Shown: positions 2-23,825 of the stretch, one piece after another
How the letters are laid out: each line of letters begins with the position of its first letter
Numbering within the stretch: position 1 is the first letter of the stretch
DNA from: a virus
DNA: 25,265 bases
IMG/VR virus record: IMGVR_UViG_3300028031_000013
Location: 1 to 25,265 of that record
Strand: one strand, 5' to 3'
Position numbers and translations under genes: made by a program
The notes under the pieces: model-generated
What the model saw: only the letters and a program-made list of their open reading frames with translations
The model's database searches: none
Told to the model about the DNA's origin: nothing

Positions 2-925
2 GACGATTTAAAAACGGGCGCTAACCAAGCTATATTCGAAATAACGTTCTGGCAGACGATAGGTTTAATCTATCCGAAGTCACAGAGTGATCCGGCGTCG
101 GAGGTTATAGAATCGGTTGACGAGTATAACGTAGCGGCTTCCGAAGCTTTCGAGGAGGCGGTAAGCCTCGATAGCGCAGTTGAAGAAGTAACTTTTAAAA
201 ACGAATACTTGGCTATTTTAGATACCGTATCAGCGGGTTTGCAAGCTATCGCAGACACCGAAGAAGCCGTTAAAAAACAATTTGAAGCCGTAGTTGATTC
301 AATTAACCAGGGCATAGACGTCTTGATATCTCAGCCTTTAACGTTAGCTTTCCAAACCGCGATATTAATACAAGCACCGGCTCGGGCCTTGACGAGTATC
401 ACGGCGAGGTTATCAGCGTATAGAGATTTAGCCCTTAGCATAATTTCAGGAGACGGCGGGGTCGTAAGCCCAAGCACGGACAGCAGTGCGTCAAATGAAT
501 TCCACACTAACGACCTATATGTCTCCACGTACTCTACTGGCTCTGTGGTTTCAGTAGTAAACCACGAGTTTACCACTAAGTCCGAAGCTATCGAAGCGGC
601 AGAGTTTGTGTTAGAGCAGTTGGATAGCGTTACGAATTGGCGGGATGCTAATTTTCAATCTTTAGGTGAGATCGACACCGGCGGCGCATACCAGCAACTA
701 CAAAGCGCGGTTGCGCTAACGGCGGGTTTCCTGGTTGAGCTGTCGTTCTCACTCAAGCAAGAACGCCGTGTGGTATTATCTCGGGATAGAACTATTATAG
801 ATTTAGTTGCTGAATTTTATGGAGAGGTAGATACACAGTTAGATTTTTTCATAAACTCAAACGATCTCAGCGGGTCGGAGATACTAGAAGTTAAAAAGGG
901 CCGAGAGGTCGTGTACTATGTATAA
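2..925 (+). CDS. Mu gp43-like DNA circularisation/tail protein (5' partial)
   Basis: The frame is open from base 2 with no stop, so the gene begins upstream of the window; an internal TTG at 209 is not a convincing start. The product resembles the C-terminal part of Mu-type 'DNA circulation' proteins (Mu gp43 family). It has a helical, Ala/Glu-rich middle with a region reading LTLAFQTAILIQAPAR, and a typical ending (LVAEFYGEVDTQLDFFINSN, then a closing GREVVYYV). In Mu the gene lies between the tape measure and the gpP-type hub; here it is followed by the hub with an 8-base overlap, which supports the assignment. The name is historical: in Mu-like phages this is a baseplate/tail structural protein, and any link to DNA circularisation is uncertain. 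Confidence 0.75.
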   Translation, partial: DDLKTGANQAIFEITFWQTIGLIYPKSQSDPASEVIESVDEYNVAASEAFEEAVSLDSAVEEVTFKNEYLAILDTVSAGLQAIADTEEAVKKQFEAVVDSINQGIDVLISQPLTLAFQTAILIQAPARALTSITARLSAYRDLALSIISGDGGVVSPSTDSSASNEFHTNDLYVSTYSTGSVVSVVNHEFTTKSEAIEAAEFVLEQLDSVTNWRDANFQSLGEIDTGGAYQQLQSAVALTAGFLVELSFSLKQERRVVLSRDRTIIDLVAEFYGEVDTQLDFFINSNDLSGSEILEVKKGREVVYYV

Positions 926-2144
926 AGTAATTGCGGGCGATACTTTCGACAGTGTATCCCGTAAGACCTACGGCACAGAGATATATTCTAGCAGGATAGC
1001 TAGCGCTAACCCGGGGGTAGTTGAGCCTCTACCTGTTGGTGTGACTATAGTTACGCCAATAATCCCCGAAGACCCAAAGAACCTACCGCAAGCCCCCCAA
1101 TCGGATAATATAGACGAGGTCGCTATTTCAATAGAGGGCGTTAGGTTTAGATTTTGGGATCGTCTGCGAATAGTTAGATCTATAGATTCTATGGACACTG
1201 TGGAGATGTCAGCGCCATTCGACCATGAAGCCCCGGGATTTAGAGAAACTTTCGTACCCTTCTCATTTAAACCCATGTCTATAACCGTAGGCGGGGAGCC
1301 TTTATTCACGGGGACTATGGTAGCCGTGGACCCCGTCATTGAGAAAGATAAAAAAGTTGTGGCTGTTAGTGGCTACGCGTCTCCCGGAGCGCTAAACGAC
1401 TGCACACCCCCGGCCAGTTCATTCCCGCTAGAGTTTGATAACTTAGGTTTACGAGACATAGCGGCGACTATGCTGGGCCCGTTTGGACTCGGCGCGGTGT
1501 TTGAGTCGGACCAAGGCTCAGTATTTGAGCGGGTGGCGTGCGAACCGGGGAACAAGGTCTTGGCGTTCCTAATAGACCTTGCCAAACAAAGAAATCTTGT
1601 TATGTCCAGTTCTCCCAAGGGGGAACTCGTATTCCTACGAGCTATCGAGGGGGGCGTACCTGTTGCTAAGCTACGTCAAGGGGAATCCCCGTTACTATCC
1701 GTAACGCCGAGGTTTAACCCCCAGGAATACTACAGCCACATTACAGGGCTAGAACCCGTGATATTAGGTCTGAAGGGCTCTCAATTCACGGTACGCAACC
1801 CTAGATTACAGGGCGTTATACGACCCTTCACTTTTAAAGCCCCCGATACTTTAGACGCGGATGTGAAAGCCACAGTCGAAGCAAAAGCGGGGCGTATGTT
1901 TGGGGGCATGGCGTCGTACTCCGTAACTGTGGCAACGTGGCGCGATCCGTCGGGCAACTTGTGGACGCCGAATACAGTTGTAAATCTACTAGCCCCGGAT
2001 GCTATGGTTTACGAAGAGTACAGTTTTATAGTGCGCTCTGTCGAGTTTAACAGGGATAGCGTATCAGAAACGGCCCTATTGGATTTAGTTGTACCCGGGT
2101 CGTTTAGTGGAAAAATACCGGAGGTTCTACCGTGGGACGCATAG
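918..2144 (+). CDS. Baseplate hub protein, Mu gp44/gpP-like with N-terminal LysM-like segment
   Basis: A 408-residue protein. Residues 1 to about 46 resemble a LysM-like fold (MYKVIAGDTFDSVSRKTYG ... PLPVGVTIVTP). The rest has the look of a T4 gp27/Mu gp44 hub: early beta-rich VEISIEG-type strands, FEPMSITVGGEPLFTG-like strands, and a late segment reading WRDPSGNLWTPNTVVNLLAP, which is frequent in gpP-type hubs. The hub trimer would hold the central spike and form the top of the cell-puncturing device. The ATG overlaps the end of the upstream gene by 8 bases, and its own stop overlaps the GTG of the spike gene. Identity rests on motif recognition and on Mu gene order. Confidence 0.8.
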   Translation: MYKVIAGDTFDSVSRKTYGTEIYSSRIASANPGVVEPLPVGVTIVTPIIPEDPKNLPQAPQSDNIDEVAISIEGVRFRFWDRLRIVRSIDSMDTVEMSAPFDHEAPGFRETFVPFSFKPMSITVGGEPLFTGTMVAVDPVIEKDKKVVAVSGYASPGALNDCTPPASSFPLEFDNLGLRDIAATMLGPFGLGAVFESDQGSVFERVACEPGNKVLAFLIDLAKQRNLVMSSSPKGELVFLRAIEGGVPVAKLRQGESPLLSVTPRFNPQEYYSHITGLEPVILGLKGSQFTVRNPRLQGVIRPFTFKAPDTLDADVKATVEAKAGRMFGGMASYSVTVATWRDPSGNLWTPNTVVNLLAPDAMVYEEYSFIVRSVEFNRDSVSETALLDLVVPGSFSGKIPEVLPWDA

Positions 2145-2719
2145 CATCTATACTATCATTCGTCAAGGTCGTTAGAAATACCGCAAACATAATAGACGTT
2201 AAAGCGGACCCTGGCGGCGGAGCGAATATAACCGCAGAGAACTTTTCGGCACCAGGTGACGACTCTCACCCCCTAATTGGGGACTATGTATCGTTAATGC
2301 CTGGAAGTGGCGCGGGACGAGAGTTAGCCGTCGGGTACTTGGACCCTCTAAACGAGGCCAAAGCAGACGTCGGGGACAAAAGGATATACGCACGCGGACC
2401 CGATGGCGTATCAATCGTGGACGTGTGGCTTAAAAATACGGGGGAGGCGACGGTATCTAATAGCTCGGCGTCGTTCACGATGTCCCCCACAGGGTCAATA
2501 AAGGGCGAAAATAGCGCGGGGAGTTTTGAATTGTCGGTAGGTGGTGACTTTTTGGTCAATGGCGTTATAATAGATACACTGGGTAATATAACCAGTCCGA
2601 CTACTATAACGGCCGGGACTATAATAGGGACCACGTCTGTCACTGCGGCAGGCAAAGAAATAGCGAACCATGTACACCCGGCGGGTACTCCCCCGGGGAA
2701 CACAGGAGTCAACACGTAA
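2132..2719 (+). CDS. Baseplate central spike / puncturing protein, Mu gp45-like
   Basis: A 195-residue protein with a GTG start inside the end of the hub gene. The N-terminal half reads as an OB-fold type domain (NITAENFSAPGDDSHPLIGD, then a GYLDPLNEAKAD strand region and GPDGVSIVDVWLKNTGE). The C-terminal half is a Thr/Gly/Ile-rich beta-helix type repeat region (SPTTITAGTIIGTTSVTAAG). It ends in NHVHPAGTPPG, an HxH near the tip as in P2 gpV and Mu gp45, where the apex His residues bind iron. The role is the membrane-piercing tip of the contractile tail. It lies directly between the hub and gp46-like genes, as in Mu. Confidence 0.85.
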   Translation: MGRIASILSFVKVVRNTANIIDVKADPGGGANITAENFSAPGDDSHPLIGDYVSLMPGSGAGRELAVGYLDPLNEAKADVGDKRIYARGPDGVSIVDVWLKNTGEATVSNSSASFTMSPTGSIKGENSAGSFELSVGGDFLVNGVIIDTLGNITSPTTITAGTIIGTTSVTAAGKEIANHVHPAGTPPGNTGVNT

Positions 2720-3165
2720 TGGCGGGTCAACAAGGCGACGTAAGCTTATTCCAAACGAATGACGGCGGGGAAATAACTGTCGAAGGTGGGATCGTGACTA
2801 TGAGCGGAGGCCTTGAAACATCGGCGTATCTATCCTTATTCGGGGGGAATGAAGACGACGACGGACGCGCGGATAATCCTTTCAATTGGTGGGCTAACAT
2901 ATCCGAAGTCGAAACGGCTAAACAGTATCGAAGCGAGACACAGAACTTACTACAAGCACTACCCGCTACCACTGGGAACTTAAGAAGAGTTGAAGACGCC
3001 GCAAACCGTGATTTAGCGTGGTTTATAACGGAACGTGTCGCCTCCGCGGTGAATGTAACGGCGAGTATGCCAGGGTTAAATAAACTTAAATTAACAATAG
3101 ACATCGAAGCACTAGGCGCAGACGCCGACTTCGAGTTTGTAGAAAATTGGAAGGCTGGATCATGA
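2719..3165 (+). CDS. Baseplate wedge protein, Mu gp46-like
   Basis: A 148-residue protein starting one base inside the upstream stop (TAATG). It has the pattern of the phage gp46 family: an early GDVSLFQTNDGGEI, a strand LETSAYLSLFGGNEDDDGR, the family-typical NPFNWWAN, then a helical segment ending in DLAWFITERVASAV and a C-terminal ADFEFVENW. In Mu and P2-like tails this protein (the gp25/gpW class) links the sheath and baseplate wedge to the hub. The gene ends in an ATGA overlap with the gp47-like gene, consistent with coupled translation. Confidence 0.8.
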   Translation: MAGQQGDVSLFQTNDGGEITVEGGIVTMSGGLETSAYLSLFGGNEDDDGRADNPFNWWANISEVETAKQYRSETQNLLQALPATTGNLRRVEDAANRDLAWFITERVASAVNVTASMPGLNKLKLTIDIEALGADADFEFVENWKAGS

Positions 3166-4364
3166 GTTTACAGACACCTACAACTAAGGAAATAAGCGAC
3201 AACACAATAGCGCAACTCGAGTCGTCACTAAATCAAACGATACCGAGTGCGCCTAAGTCTTTTATGCGCGTGCTATCTAAAGCTATAGCGGGCGTTTTCG
3301 TCCTCTTGTATAAGTATGGCGGGTTTATATTCTTACAAATGTTCGTACAAACTGCGAGTGCTAAAGACACGGTCGTAAATGGCGTAACTGTGAACCCTCT
3401 TACATTTTGGGGGAGGCTTATAGGTGTCGGAGATCCTACGGCAGCAACTCAGGCAGAACTATTAATCGACATCACTGTGGAGACCCCGTCGGGGACTCTG
3501 CCGTCGGGGTCTCAGCTTGTTAGCTCATCGAACGGGGTTACGTATATCACGATCGGTGCGGTACTACTTAATGCCCCCGTGGTTCAAGCTTCCGCACGGG
3601 CCGTATCTGACCAAGCGGGAGGTGGCGGCGCGGGTGTTATAGGGAACCTAGACGCCGGTGCGATCCTCTCGTTTGCAAACCCTCTCGCTAATGTGGACCG
3701 AAACGCTACGGTGGTTTCTCAGGTAGTTACCGGAGCCGACGGAGAATCCACGGCGGCGTATAGACAGCGCGTTATTGATAGGTTTCAGAAAAGACCACAG
3801 GGTGGGGCTTACGCCGATTATGAGCAGTGGGGTGAAGAAGCAGCGGGTATTATAAATGTTTATCCGTACACAGGGGAACCTGGACAAGTAGACGTCTATA
3901 GTGAAGCGACGGTCGCTAGTAGCGGATCTCCTGACGGCATACCTACCCTAGCCCAATTACAGTCGGTGCTAGATATTATAAATTTTGATTCTAATGGATT
4001 AGCTAACAGACGGAACGCTAACGCATTCGTGAATTCCCTACCCATAACCCGAACTAGCTTCGACGTGGTCGTTACGGGTATTGTCGGGGTGTCATCTTTA
4101 GCAGAAGTTCAAGCTAATGTCACCACTGCGTTAACCGAGTACTTCCTATCCGTCGCACCATTCATCGTGGGGTTGACTATTCCCCCGCGTGCGGATCAGA
4201 TAACTAGAACTCGCGTATCATCTATAGTCGAGGACATAGTAACCGCCTCAGGTGGGACTTTCACGTCGGCCGTATTTTTTGAAACAGGTATCCCCGCGAT
4301 ACTAACAACTTATGTTTTGGGTGAAGGCGAAAAAGCCAAAGCCGATGACGTGACCTTTAATTAA
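3162..4364 (+). CDS. Baseplate J-like protein, Mu gp47-like
   Basis: I chose the ATG at 3162 (ATGA overlap with the upstream stop, GGAAGG seven bases before) over a TTG at 3147. The product of about 400 residues matches the baseplate J family: an early LLYKYGGFIFLQMFVQTAS, the strand TVNPLTFWGRLIGVGDPTAAT, the family signature GADGESTAAYRQRVIDRF with KRPQGGAYADYEQW, and a C-terminal TIPPRADQITRTRVSSIVED. Baseplate J proteins build the baseplate wedges that trigger sheath contraction. The neighbours are gp46-like and gp48-like genes, exactly as in Mu. Confidence 0.88.
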   Translation: MSLQTPTTKEISDNTIAQLESSLNQTIPSAPKSFMRVLSKAIAGVFVLLYKYGGFIFLQMFVQTASAKDTVVNGVTVNPLTFWGRLIGVGDPTAATQAELLIDITVETPSGTLPSGSQLVSSSNGVTYITIGAVLLNAPVVQASARAVSDQAGGGGAGVIGNLDAGAILSFANPLANVDRNATVVSQVVTGADGESTAAYRQRVIDRFQKRPQGGAYADYEQWGEEAAGIINVYPYTGEPGQVDVYSEATVASSGSPDGIPTLAQLQSVLDIINFDSNGLANRRNANAFVNSLPITRTSFDVVVTGIVGVSSLAEVQANVTTALTEYFLSVAPFIVGLTIPPRADQITRTRVSSIVEDIVTASGGTFTSAVFFETGIPAILTTYVLGEGEKAKADDVTFN

Positions 4365-8095: not shown

Positions 8096-8313
8096 ATGAC
8101 TTTTGTTACGGGTTTAAAACTTAAAAACCGAACTAACTCTTGTGCGTCCTCTAAGGTATCCAATTCAAAAGGGTCTTTTCCGGCCTTTGTATAGTGAAAG
8201 TTGGTATACCCAGGATCGGACCCCGGTGCTAAAAACCTCTTACACTGGACTCTAAACGAGTCTTTCTTTTTATACCCTGTGGTCCGTACTACCCTATACT
8301 TCGTATAATTTAT
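8092..8313 (-). CDS. Reading frame after the polymerase gene with no canonical start
   Basis: On the minus strand a frame of about 72 codons stays open from the polymerase stop to a TAA at 8094-8092. The peptide looks like a real protein: YTKYRVVRTTGYKKKDSF, FLAPGSDPGYTNFHYTKAG, DPFELDTLEDAQELVRFLSF. It has no ATG or GTG and only a late TTG. Two explanations are visible. One is initiation at ATA in the ATAA that overlaps the polymerase stop. The other is a -1 slip on AGA_AAA_GGA just before that stop, which would give the polymerase a C-terminal extension. It could also be a gene that has lost its start. Family unknown. Confidence 0.4.
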   Translation of the reverse strand: MNYTKYRVVRTTGYKKKDSFRVQCKRFLAPGSDPGYTNFHYTKAGKDPFELDTLEDAQELVRFLSFKPVTKVI

Positions 8314-11303
8314 CCTTTTCTATATCGTTTTCCGCGCCAACCGCCAGCCGCTTTTATAGGCCAGTCAGAAGCCCACGCGGGCATTGTGGCCATGATAGTC
8401 TCAAACTCATCTACGGAACCAAACCCTTTCGGTACTTCGCTCACTATTTCATCATGGACGTGCAAAACTATAGGGTATCCGGCCGCATCTAAAGCGGGCA
8501 TAGCATGGGTTAGTATATCCCGGGCTACGGCTTGGCATACGTTCTCGCATAACTTACCCCCGTGCGTATCGAGTCGGGTCCAACCCATAGGCCCTTTTGT
8601 ATAGTCCGAATTCCACGCCATATAAGTCAGTTGTAAAACTTCTTTACCCCAAGGCATCACCCGCATTAGAAGTCGGGGGTTATGGTACGCTAGGCTTCTA
8701 CCGCTCGGTAACAAGCAGTAGAGCACGTCGTCTTTTACGCCATATGTTATGTCTCGATAAGAGAAGCACTCACCAGGATGTTCTACCGCTTGGAATGCCG
8801 CGCGTTCTAATCCGTACCATAAGTCTACAATCGCCGGAGATTCCTTACGCCACGCTTTGACGGACTCTTTTATTTCGTCATCTTCCATGAAATCACCAGC
8901 CCCGAACGCTTTCCATGCGCCTATAGCTCCACGATAACCACTGTTATGGACGATGAGATGGCCACTATCTGTCTTAATCGTAAAACGATTTCTAGGCCCC
9001 GCATTTACAATGTCGTATACGTCTCTCGAGTTCGTCCACTCTTTTTTGTAGAGTGACGATCGACCTTTTGTTTTTTGAGTTTTCAGATCTAGTGACAAAT
9101 CTGATATTCCCCGGGGTGTACCCACCGTCGGGGTCGATCCTATCCATGTCAAGGCCCGCGTCATCCCACCCCGGCAGGCCCTTAACATAGGTGAGAAAAG
9201 GTCTCTTAGACGCCCGCCACTCGTCGCACACGTGTACCCCACGACCTCCATAGTTTTTAAAAGCCCTATTTCCTGAGTTGTGGCACCGGCCGATTGCGGA
9301 GCTAAGTCGATTGCAAAGCCTCCTTCGGTCCTCAGTGTCGGGGATGGCATCAGCGTACGTAGAGTATTTTTTGAAATAGGTCTCCCGCCCTTTACGACGC
9401 CCACAATCCCTACAGCGGGTAGCTTTGCCCATGTGGAGGTTAGAGTCCGTAACGAAATAGGGTTCTTTTCCGCAGGAGCATTTGACGATCGCTCCGTATG
9501 TACCCCCGTATTTAGAGTCTCGCACGACGGTAAGTTCTCCGAACCTATCGCCAGGGCAAGACGCAGCGTGTTTTCGTTTGAAGCGAGTTTTTTTGCCGCC
9601 TTCCAAGAACGCCCCAAGCTTATCGGATGATCCGGGGTCACATCTATGCCATCCACGTTTATAGTCCCCCTCGCACCTTTGTGTATCGACCCGTAACTTT
9701 GTACCCATTCTATGCCATCCCATAAATAGTCTTCACTAGTAACACCCACTATATCCACGTACCCGCGCTTTGTCAAAACTTGCGTACCGGGGCCAAAACA
9801 GGCCAATTCAGCAATTTTTCCGACCTTCTTCCGTAGCGGATGGTGCTCCCCAGTTTCTTTCTTGTGGCTTATGAACTCCTCGAACGGAATGCCCGTTATT
9901 TTAGAGGCGGACATCTCATAGATCATACCGTGAGTTTTGAACACCTCTATGCGCCACTGTTCGCCCGCTAACTGGGCTAAAACCACGGCTTCTATGGCAG
10001 AGTAATCCGATGCTATAAGATCGTAGCCGTTGGGTGCGCTGAATAACCCCCGTAAACACCCCGAAACCGCAGCCACTGCGTCGCCGTACTCGCCTTCGAC
10101 CGTTAGCAAGTCGCGGGAGGCGATAACGCTTAGCGCGTGGTCTACTTGAGCAACCCCCCAAACTTTAAGAGGGCCCGAGTTTGGTAAATTTTGAGGCTGT
10201 GGACCTCGGCCCGCAAAACGCCCCGTGCGATCCGCGCCACAAAATGCGAATAAGTCCCGAAGTCGGCCGTCTTTAGATACGCGTCGATCCATAGCAAATA
10301 GCTTTTTAACGCTAGCGGCGCCAAGCGACGCACGTATTTCTAGTACTCGTTTAGCGGCAGGGGGTAAGTCGTCACGCTCTAGCGCGGCCGCTACGTGCGC
10401 CGAGTCTAGGCTGTCCATGTGGACCCCATTAGCGCCCAACCACCCGCTAAGTTTTCCTATTTCCCCCGCGCTTTTAACAACCCCTCCCGTTATAGCCACG
10501 AGCTCGGCTGTGTACCTGGCGTGGGCTTCCTCTACTACAGCGATACAATCCGCTAGCGCTTCGGGGTCTATATGAACCCCCCTATAGTTTATTCCTTGAT
10601 CTAATAGCCACAGGTTTAACTCCGCAGTGCTTAAATCGGGTATGAGCGCGGATGCCGCAGACTCCGAGCGAATATCGCCCCGGTTATAGTCATAAAATTT
10701 AACTGCGTCCTCGTGGTCTTCTTCGGGCTTAATCCGACGGCGTGGGTCTTTCTTAGTGGGCTTGCGTGGCTTACTAAATTTATTAATCAATCGTTTACCA
10801 TCGGCAATTTTTTGATCGTCTAGTTGAAGAACTTCCGCCATTTTGCCCAGGGCCCCAGGAAGTGAGAACGCCCGGGCTTTTGCCGCAACGTCGCGTAGCT
10901 GTTCGAAGGGGAGAGGGGGCCAGCCCATCGGCTCACACACGTTTTTCCATATGTACCACTCGAAAGCGCTATTACATGCTTCTAATAAACCGCCGCTTGC
11001 TATGTGGTCGAATAGATCCGTCGGCGGTTGCATACCAGGAACCCACATTCTCGGTCCGAGTCCGTCTTTAAAATCGTATGCTAGGCTTAAAACTTCAGTA
11101 GAGGGGTGTTCTGAATATGCCGCCGCGCCAACAGCCGGTAAGCCGTGCGGCGGGGACTTAGTGATAGACACCCACTTGTTATCGGCATCCGACCATAAGT
11201 AACCTGCGGAGCTATACGTCTCGAAATCGAAGTCAGGTAAGACCTGGGCCGAACCACATCCGGCGGGTAATTGTTGTCCGGAACGTAATGCATTTAAATT
11301 CAT
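8310..11303 (-). CDS. polA: Family A DNA polymerase with 3'-5' exonuclease, interrupted by an intein
   Basis: A 997-codon precursor; the polymerase itself would be 711 residues after splicing. The N-terminal exonuclease shows LPDFDFETY (D26/E28), an NSAFEWY motif and YDYNRGD. Polymerase motif A is SDYSAIEA (D433). Motif B/O helix is KKVGKIAELA joined to SGYRGAIG. Motif C is HVHDE (H950-E952). The intein splits motif B after residue 501 and ends at residue 787. Splicing would be needed for activity, because the split separates the catalytic Lys region from the O-helix Tyr. The ATG has AAGGAC about 7 bases upstream. It lies in the minus-strand replication operon with the DUF2815 and DUF2800 genes. 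The product would be the phage's replicative polymerase. Confidence 0.93.
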   Translation of the reverse strand: MNLNALRSGQQLPAGCGSAQVLPDFDFETYSSAGYLWSDADNKWVSITKSPPHGLPAVGAAAYSEHPSTEVLSLAYDFKDGLGPRMWVPGMQPPTDLFDHIASGGLLEACNSAFEWYIWKNVCEPMGWPPLPFEQLRDVAAKARAFSLPGALGKMAEVLQLDDQKIADGKRLINKFSKPRKPTKKDPRRRIKPEEDHEDAVKFYDYNRGDIRSESAASALIPDLSTAELNLWLLDQGINYRGVHIDPEALADCIAVVEEAHARYTAELVAITGGVVKSAGEIGKLSGWLGANGVHMDSLDSAHVAAALERDDLPPAAKRVLEIRASLGAASVKKLFAMDRRVSKDGRLRDLFAFCGADRTGRFAGRGPQPQNLPNSGPLKVWGVAQVDHALSVIASRDLLTVEGEYGDAVAAVSGCLRGLFSAPNGYDLIASDYSAIEAVVLAQLAGEQWRIEVFKTHGMIYEMSASKITGIPFEEFISHKKETGEHHPLRKKVGKIAELACFGPGTQVLTKRGYVDIVGVTSEDYLWDGIEWVQSYGSIHKGARGTINVDGIDVTPDHPISLGRSWKAAKKLASNENTLRLALAIGSENLPSCETLNTGVHTERSSNAPAEKNPISLRTLTSTWAKLPAVGIVGVVKGGRPISKNTLRTLMPSPTLRTEGGFAIDLAPQSAGATTQEIGLLKTMEVVGYTCATSGGRLRDLFSPMLRACRGGMTRALTWIGSTPTVGTPRGISDLSLDLKTQKTKGRSSLYKKEWTNSRDVYDIVNAGPRNRFTIKTDSGHLIVHNSGYRGAIGAWKAFGAGDFMEDDEIKESVKAWRKESPAIVDLWYGLERAAFQAVEHPGECFSYRDITYGVKDDVLYCLLPSGRSLAYHNPRLLMRVMPWGKEVLQLTYMAWNSDYTKGPMGWTRLDTHGGKLCENVCQAVARDILTHAMPALDAAGYPIVLHVHDEIVSEVPKGFGSVDEFETIMATMPAWASDWPIKAAGGWRGKRYRKG
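8992..9723 (-). CDS. HNH homing endonuclease nested out of frame inside the intein
   Basis: A 243-codon ORF on the polymerase strand but in the -1 frame, wholly inside the intein. From about residue 55 it is a complete phage HNH nuclease. First comes PGDRFGELTVV, then a zinc-ribbon-like pair (KCSCGKE ... CRDCGRR). Next are RLCNRLSSAIGRCHNSGNRA, YGGRGVHVCDEW and FLTYVKGLPGW, and the catalytic region DMDRIDPDGGYTPGNIRFVT with NSKNKR. A short helix (LQKRVDELERRIRHC) ends at TAG. The first about 50 residues, which overlap intein blocks A/B, have no family look. An ATG at 9723 has only a weak GAAG site; a -1 shift at the A7 run (9594-9588) would also enter this frame just before the nuclease. It would spread the intein by cutting intein-free polymerase genes. 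Confidence 0.85.
   Translation of the reverse strand: MGWHRMGTKLRVDTQRCEGDYKRGWHRCDPGSSDKLGAFLEGGKKTRFKRKHAASCPGDRFGELTVVRDSKYGGTYGAIVKCSCGKEPYFVTDSNLHMGKATRCRDCGRRKGRETYFKKYSTYADAIPDTEDRRRLCNRLSSAIGRCHNSGNRAFKNYGGRGVHVCDEWRASKRPFLTYVKGLPGWDDAGLDMDRIDPDGGYTPGNIRFVTRSENSKNKRSIVTLQKRVDELERRIRHCKCGA
9588..9594 (-). promoter_or_regulatory. Candidate -1 frameshift site (A_AAA_AAA) between intein and nuclease frames
   Basis: In the intein frame the codons read GCA AAA AAA CTC, which contains the heptamer A_AAA_AAA in the phase required for -1 slippage. After a slip, reading continues ACT CGC TTC in the HNH frame, about 12 codons before the PGDRFGELTVV start of the nuclease. A GGAAGG lies four bases upstream. 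A7 can also cause transcriptional slippage. That this site is used is an inference. Confidence 0.45.
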
Positions 11304-22568: not shown

Positions 22569-23825
22569 CTAAAGTATTCCGGGATGGCAGGACGTACAAC
22601 GGCTATCTTTAGTGCGTCTCGCCGCTATATAACCACATTTATTACAAGCGCTCGCGGGTACGTAGTACTTCTCACCCCCAGCCTTAGCTAACTTACGGGG
22701 ATGTTCATGGTCTGGTGCCGCCCCAGGGTGACACGCCGTACAACGGCTATCTTTAGTTAAGCGCGCCGCGATGTAACCGCACGTGTTGCACGCTCTCGTC
22801 GGTACGTAATACTTCTCACCCGAAGACGTAGCCCGCTTACGTGGGCTTGGACCTTTATCAATTCCGGGATGGCAGGACGTACACACGCTATCTTTAGTAC
22901 GGCGCCTCGCAGTCTTACCGCACAACCGACACGGTTCGTCGGAGATGTAGTACTTCTCACCTTCTGCGATAGCAGCGGTGCGGGGGTGAACAGCATCAGA
23001 AACCGCGCCGGGGTGACATACCGTGCATCGACTATCTTTAGTTACCCTCGCAGCCACAGCTCCGCAGGTGTTACACGGCTTCTTAGGTACGTAGTACTTC
23101 TCGCCTTCTGCCACAGCTAACTTACGAGGGCTTTGAGGCGCTATAATACATGGACGGCACACCGTGCACACGCTATCTTTAGTACGCCGGGGTGATATCG
23201 TACCGCACAACCTACAGGGTTCGCCCGAGGTGTAATACTTCTCACCGGCGGCCTTAGCAAGAGTACGAGGGTGCACCGCTTCCGAAGCAGCCTTTGGATG
23301 ACACACGGTGCATCGGCTATCTTTAGTTAAGCGCGCCGCCATGTTACCACACGTGTTGCACGGCTTCTTAGGTAAGTAGGTTCGTTTCGAGTCGTCCCTT
23401 GCCAACTGTCTGGGTGATTTCTCTTTGCAGAAGTAACAGCCCCCACGAACAGACATCACACCCATGTGGCCTTTAGTTTTGCACGGCTTCCTACTTAAGT
23501 ATACATCATCGCCACGAGCGAGAGCCTTCGACCGTGTATCGGCCGGATTCATACCCAGCAAAGCCACAGCATCTCCAAACTTATACACATAGGCGCCATC
23601 AACAGTGTACGGTGCCGTCGCAGCACCCACCTTAAACCGGAATATATTAAGCCCCTCAACCTCAAAACGCGCGTCTTTCTGCGTTACTAGCATGCTTAAC
23701 TGCCTAGCGTCTATCATTGAACAGGCAACACAGGTGCCTCTAGCCGCTTCGTAACGCTTTGTAGCCGCTCCAGCGGGCCTATTCCTCTCTACACAGGTCT
23801 TGCACTCCACATTACAGTCGAACAT
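22569..23825 (-). CDS. Tandem zinc-ribbon repeat protein
   Basis: A 418-residue protein of arrayed zinc ribbons; AAGGAGAG lies before the ATG. Six repeats of 47-48 residues run from residue 139 to the end (the last one is 42 residues), each C-X2-C-X12-C-X2-C. One unit begins RKLAVAEGEKYYV, then PCNTCG, TKDSRCTVCHPG. Two unit types alternate: PCNTCG...AARLTKDSRC and PCRLCG...RRTKDSVC, so the period is two units. A degenerate seventh unit (residues about 100-138) has KTKGHMGV and GGCYFC. The N-terminus has another Cys pair set (CKTC, CVAC) and a unique strand region (about 50-95). Units resemble the ribbons of phage HNH proteins, but no HNH motif is present. Function unknown; nucleic-acid binding is plausible. 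Confidence 0.8.
   Translation of the reverse strand: MFDCNVECKTCVERNRPAGAATKRYEAARGTCVACSMIDARQLSMLVTQKDARFEVEGLNIFRFKVGAATAPYTVDGAYVYKFGDAVALLGMNPADTRSKALARGDDVYLSRKPCKTKGHMGVMSVRGGCYFCKEKSPRQLARDDSKRTYLPKKPCNTCGNMAARLTKDSRCTVCHPKAASEAVHPRTLAKAAGEKYYTSGEPCRLCGTISPRRTKDSVCTVCRPCIIAPQSPRKLAVAEGEKYYVPKKPCNTCGAVAARVTKDSRCTVCHPGAVSDAVHPRTAAIAEGEKYYISDEPCRLCGKTARRRTKDSVCTSCHPGIDKGPSPRKRATSSGEKYYVPTRACNTCGYIAARLTKDSRCTACHPGAAPDHEHPRKLAKAGGEKYYVPASACNKCGYIAARRTKDSRCTSCHPGIL

Follow-up and report, generated by a model that had tools for sequence, protein, structure and literature searches.

An intein in a phage DNA polymerase gene with an HNH-type endonuclease reading frame nested out of frame within it

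Organization of the polymerase locus

The window analysed here is a stretch of 25,265 nucleotides, positions 1 to 25,265 of the IMG/VR virus record IMGVR_UViG_3300028031_000013. The ORF list placed a 997 amino acid ORF for a family A DNA polymerase (PolA) on the minus strand at 8310-11303, and this ORF contained an intein insert of 286 codons (9800-8943, minus strand). A second ORF, of 243 codons and a stop, lay wholly within the intein and one base out of frame with it. The principal features are listed below, with the evidence for each in brackets.

9801..11303, minus strand: polymerase N-terminal extein (ORF; Pfam DNA_pol_A, E 5e-12; PHROG phrog_17, E 3e-86)
8943..9800, minus strand: intein, C1 to N286, followed by Ser+1 (blocks kept in 62 relatives; absent at the same site in SppYZU01 and Scuro)
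9519..9800, minus strand: N-terminal half of the Hint (splicing) domain, residues ~1-94 (pLDDT 97-98 up to residue ~90; third codon positions of the intein change fastest in most of this half)
9045..9518, minus strand: intein-frame linker, residues 95-252, overlapping the HNH core (predicted disordered, pLDDT mostly 30-46; no stops in 68 relatives)
8943..9044, minus strand: C-terminal half of the Hint domain, residues 253-286 (pLDDT 97-98; D263, H285 and N286 conserved)
8992..9723, minus strand: HNH-type endonuclease ORF nested in the -1 frame of the intein, coordinates including the stop (PHROG HNH families, E 3e-35; folded model; codon-phase purifying selection)
8995..9552, minus strand: HNH core from GDRFG, with zinc-binding cysteines and then the DR...YxPGN motif (family alignments)
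8310..8942, minus strand: polymerase C-terminal extein (ORF; PHROG polymerase matches)

Elsewhere in the window, positions 918-4364 gave PHROG matches to baseplate hub and baseplate wedge proteins, which suggest a contractile tail. A 418-codon ORF at 22569-23825 on the minus strand is probably repetitive, since four stretches of it matched PHROGs of unknown function.

The intein frame

The intein started with C/FGPGTQVLT and ended with VYDIVNAGPRNRFTIKTDSGHLIVHN/S, the C-terminal end also being given as RFTIKTDSGHLIVHN/S. The features by which inteins are recognised were present, namely a nucleophile at position 1, a block B T..H motif and a C-terminal HN followed by C, S or T. In the 62 relatives C1, T55, H58 and N286 were invariant and H285 nearly so, while the +1 residue was S or C. 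The insertion site was empty in Shewanella phage SppYZU01 and Acinetobacter phage Scuro, whose polymerases (72% and 65% identical, respectively) are continuous at this point. The two halves of the intein were modelled using AlphaFold as a complete Hint fold, which superposed on the splicing domain of the Mtu RecA intein with a Z score of 14.2 over 112 residues at 2.3 Å. Protein splicing of the polymerase precursor would be expected of such an insert. No endonuclease was visible in the intein frame, the middle of which was predicted to be disordered, in agreement with the initial annotation, which had described a 286-codon frame with splicing blocks and no endonuclease.

NCBIfam had no match to the intein of the window and gave a weak intein_Nterm match in 10 of the 62 members. 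The intein frame (8943-9800) matched PHROG phrog_93, named 'endonuclease', over nearly its whole length (E 6e-30); the source of this name may be the hidden HNH or other inteins.

The nested HNH-type endonuclease frame

The nested ORF (9723-8992) matched PHROG HNH families with E values of 3e-35 to 3e-20, bearing out the earlier description of a complete 243-codon HNH that is read in the -1 frame and contained entirely in the intein. Pfam returned no HNH family for this ORF or for any of the 62 members, NCBIfam had no match to the HNH ORF of the window, and significant matches were found neither in a PDB sequence search with the HNH profile nor in a Foldseek search with the HNH model. The structure predictions that had been proposed for both products gave a Hint fold with a disordered linker for the intein frame and a folded protein with a mean pLDDT of 83 and a disordered N-terminal tail for the HNH frame. 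Among solved structures PacI was the only nuclease to reach a Z score of 5 against the HNH model, at a modest 5.2. In the 62-member alignment D194-R195 and N206 were invariant; as the family contains no invariant histidine, it is uncertain whether the canonical HNH residues carry out catalysis, and the chemistry may be non-canonical.

Relatives sharing the nested arrangement

Searching IMG/VR with the single HNH protein returned nothing, and relatives were obtained with an alignment-based profile search, which gave 301 HNH relatives of which the best 80 were kept; a few close ones were in bacterial genome contigs. Using tblastn, the same intein/HNH pair was found in Vibrio phage 97.13, Pseudomonas phage MR14, EBPR siphovirus 2 and phages of Kagunavirus and Dhillonvirus, and about 145 records of Salmonella phages contained the intein. 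Nesting was common to more than 100 phage loci overall, with the same nesting and offset in every close HNH relative examined (~90 loci). A sequencing slip is ruled out, because these independent genomes share both the arrangement and the offset. For detailed tests 68 distinct inteins and HNH cores were used.

HNH relatives of at least 150 bits all lay within a second long open frame and always at the same offset; those below 130 bits were mostly free-standing, with a second long frame only exceptionally. The frame surrounding the nested HNHs had intein ends in nearly all cases. The usual insertion was after GK-x-x-E-L-A (or GK-T-x-I-L-G), or four codons earlier after GK-A/V/T, and one locus had its insert in a helicase-like gene (L092). 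One intein family was seen at two polymerase sites four codons apart, GK/CELGLG and GKVAELA/SGY. A second intein end or intein was present within the same host gene at L070 (polymerase) and L220 (SNF2-type helicase). The polymerase or intein frame of SS3e (L005) and SE2 (L001) was broken with the HNH frame open, which could reflect sequencing errors or real breaks.

No relative examined had the HNH in the intein frame, and no case was found of stops piled in one frame, these being the two patterns which the initial annotation had named as counting against its reading. At L070 the HNH was truncated and the intein frame was still open, as would be predicted for endonuclease decay in a homing cycle; the relatives were found through their HNH, and copies lacking it are under-sampled. 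HNH identity exceeded extein identity in distant hosts, for example 78% compared to 32%, as expected for mobile elements, and faster evolution of the polymerases could contribute to this difference.

Open frames and the division of constraint

The expected number of stops was obtained from a null model in which the HNH protein was held fixed and its own codons were shuffled among synonymous positions. The 68 distinct HNH cores contained no intein-frame stops, compared to 247 expected, while the third, unused frame was ordinary (903 stops, 875 expected) and the same frame of 63 free-standing relatives contained 451 stops where 443 were expected. For the window alone the absence of intein-frame stops gave P = 0.0002 over the whole ORF (4.5 stops expected) and P = 0.0009 over the HNH core (3.8 expected). 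The earlier claim that both frames are unlikely to have stayed open by chance is upheld by these figures.

Changes were counted by codon position using parsimony on a tree of the 68 inteins. Over most of the first part of the intein third positions were the fastest, with ~20 changes per site compared to 9-13 for position 1 and 7-9 for position 2. This intein-type pattern faded at about codons 60-80 and then switched to an HNH-type pattern. Over the 190-codon HNH core the HNH third positions changed fastest (22.4 compared to 11.8 and 9.0), and since these are the second positions of the intein, the intein-frame amino acids are not conserved there. In the outer parts the intein frame was conserved and the HNH frame formed a variable tail, and the AlphaFold models gave the same partition as the switch in selection.

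The constraint is partitioned, the ends of the element evolving as intein and the middle as HNH. The part of the intein frame that overlaps the HNH core is predicted to be a disordered linker, and the only visible demand on it is that it contain no stops. The initial annotation had proposed that the two frames are dual-coded and that each constrains the other; the arrangement is real, overlapping, old and conserved, while the idea of mutual constraint gave way to the partition seen in the codon-phase counts.

Candidate expression signals within the intein

Three candidate signals for separate expression of the HNH were located in the first part of the intein.

9748..9776, minus strand: predicted embedded sigma-70-like promoter, TTGACA-17-TATAGT (11/12 match; 30/68 relatives at 9/12 or better; codon choice)
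9715..9721, minus strand: weak Shine-Dalgarno-like GGGATGG before the 9708 start (duplex energy -6.4; weak evidence, as it follows from the intein WDG residues)
9706..9708, minus strand: likeliest HNH start codon, the ATG of GAATGG, with an alternative ATG at 9721-9723 (start codon in 68/70 relatives; synonymous choice)

The HNH-frame start codons fall within the W-D-G-x-x-W motif of the intein. The second start site, GAATGG in the window, was ATG, GTG or TTG in those 68 relatives. With the codon usage of the flanking polymerase as baseline, the A-ending codon that gives ATG at the start site was used in 45 of 56 cases (18.8 expected), and in a subgroup starting six bases later valine was encoded by GTA in 12/12 (2.8 expected). 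A strong Shine-Dalgarno sequence is usually found upstream in this late-start subgroup, for example GGGGAGGAG in the layout GGGGAGGAG-TGGGT-ATG. The mean duplex energy of shuffled sequences was dropped as evidence, as the shuffles add HNH-frame stops and GGGAYGG follows from the intein amino acids.

The predicted promoter sits at a constant position in the coding sequence of the intein, within its first 65 bases and ending 24 bases before the first ATG. Synonymous shuffles reached the 9/12 threshold in 12.2 ± 2.5 relatives, compared to the 30 observed, and about half of the relatives lacked a promoter of 9/12 or better. Leucine codon 8 was TTG in 45/67 (9.1 expected), compared to 110/515 for other leucines of the region, and codon 15 was T-ending in 51/68 (14.3 expected). 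The ATA of the -10 element was no commoner than elsewhere in the intein, and only the TTG and the -10 T were counted. Shared ancestry inflates all of these codon-choice figures and P values, and those for the promoter hold when a single Jerseyvirus is kept. Synonymous codons in the intein are biased toward a sigma-70-like promoter and HNH start codons, consistent with a nested gene that has its own predicted signals.

Other clades and their origins

A second group of nested elements, clade B, contained SFCi1, APSE-1, Caulobacter RW, an Oscillospiraceae contig and about 20 viral contigs, with the HNH within inteins at the opposite offset. The host genes, named from reading the sequences, were polymerase (at another site), SNF2-type helicase and terminase. 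Clade B contained no stops where 146 were expected and displayed HNH-type selection, and no promoter was found at a conserved position. A small clade C (Streptococcus Javan101, Gardnerella AB1) combined the insertion site of the window with the offset of clade B. The lack of stops seen in the clade of the window recurred in the independent clades with this other offset. On a tree with free-standing HNHs, clade A, which contains the window, formed one group with clade C as its sister, and clade B was placed among the free-standing genes. Since clade A is a single group and clade B falls among free-standing HNHs, the tree suggests that nesting began at least twice, and that between A and C either the frame changed or nesting began once more; the root was not inferred, which leaves room for reversals.

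Discussion

In canonical mobile inteins such as PI-SceI the endonuclease is an in-frame fusion located between blocks B and F. The element described here shares with them a splicing domain, endonuclease sequence between the two halves and expected homing. It differs in that the endonuclease lies in another frame and would form a separate protein, and the in-frame segment is a linker predicted to be disordered, so that it was not classed as a mobile intein with an in-frame endonuclease.

Caution over precedent in the initial annotation was apt, as out-of-frame HNH insertions have been described in the ShiLan domain and the Pacc40 insertion (Arsenault, Gosselin, Gogarten 2025, PMC11855218). These resemble the present element in having an HNH ORF out of the host frame, no host-frame stops, a patchy distribution in phages and proposed internal translation. 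Their authors' analysis revealed no splicing domains of inteins or introns in them, and they are believed to remain part of the methylase, whereas the window has a complete intein around its HNH, with a predicted promoter and start inside it, and the hosts are polymerase, helicase and terminase genes. A ShiLan-type insertion was rejected given the complete intein. ShiLan was the only direct precedent found in a literature search that excluded one same-group preprint on non-canonical intein architecture; the search also gave an announcement of an out-of-frame HNH in a phage methylase. Group I introns of phage polymerases with HNH ORFs (such as I-PfoP3I, PMC3428280) likewise nest an HNH gene in a splicing element. 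In the present case splicing is expected at the protein level, which requires both frames to stay open, and no intron RNA was found.

Several public records belong to the same nested clades and have the HNH or the intein annotated (APSE-1 P45/P46, SO-1 gp38/gp39, SS3e orf41-43 and the vB_SenS-Ent1 polymerase intein). Each is partial: SO-1 has a group I intron, APSE-1 lists the overlapping HNH, and Ent1 has an intein without the HNH. The Sodalis phage SO-1 polymerase (L176, NC_013600.1), annotated with a type I self-splicing intron, has an intein frame with a nested HNH and no Rfam group I match, and the intron is probably a misannotation.

The element is very probably a mobile intein carried in two overlapping genes, with the HNH made separately and serving in homing. 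This reading draws on the two ORFs and their conservation, the phase-specific selection, the absence of stops, the predicted folds, codon choice and patchy distribution; splicing, HNH expression, DNA cutting and homing are proposed from sequence and from known families. The long frame would be translated into a precursor of the DNA polymerase that includes the whole splicing domain, and the intein would then excise itself. The HNH, of a free-standing type, would be a distinct protein, translated from an internal start of its own and probably also expressed from its own promoter in the first 65 bases of the intein. It would then cut or nick intein-free polymerase alleles, and repair of the cut allele would copy the whole intein into the intein-free polymerase.

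The best surviving alternative, an unlikely one, is that both products are expressed and that the HNH does not serve homing, acting instead elsewhere as a general endonuclease of phage competition or as a nicking enzyme. Nicking at sites distant from the enzyme's own gene is known for some HNH enzymes, and many free-standing HNH relatives occur without an intein. Patchy insertion at fixed polymerase sites and an HNH similarity above that of the exteins fit homing.

Programmed -1 ribosomal frameshifting, by which the N-terminal intein half would be fused to the HNH, has in its favour the -1 offset of the window clade and the heptamer A AAA AAA within block B of the window. It is nevertheless very improbable: a search before the frame switch found slippery heptamers in only 9/68 relatives, scattered and with no shared position, synonymous choice favours start codons, and the opposite offset of clades B and C would call for +1 shifting. 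There is a similarly small chance that the HNH ORF is a relic with a lost frame and the intein the sole working product. Endonuclease decay does belong to the homing cycle, as the truncated HNH of L070 illustrates, yet HNH-type purifying selection extends over 190 codons across the clade, the ORFs are open in nearly all relatives and the start codons are under selection. A group I intron with an HNH ORF, as the SO-1 record (gp38/gp39) has it for a homologue and as is common in phage introns, can be dismissed almost completely, given the lack of an Rfam match in the window and nine other loci, the complete intein blocks and Hint fold, and a polymerase frame open through all inserts.

Beyond the mobile intein of the window, the comparison with other clades moderately favours a widespread and unnamed intein class, in which a complete gene for the homing endonuclease is nested in another frame, with promoter, ribosome site and start in the clade of the window. 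Nesting of free-standing HNH genes would have occurred on at least two separate occasions, with both offsets used, and the resulting elements would have spread among polymerase, helicase and terminase genes of phages.

As a rule mobile inteins are presented as a splicing domain with an in-frame endonuclease, and hundreds of viral sequences, including those of well-studied Salmonella phages, appear to use two overlapping genes instead. The arrangement accounts for a series of confusing annotations, among them split polymerases, a supposed intron and an 'endonuclease' family that matches the intein frame. With cultivable phages among the carriers, splicing, expression and homing are directly testable. 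Nesting would uncouple endonuclease expression from polymerase expression. It illustrates how two proteins of a selfish element can be packed into a single stretch of DNA, and it provides a natural system for the study of overlapping genes whose two constraints divide the DNA between them.
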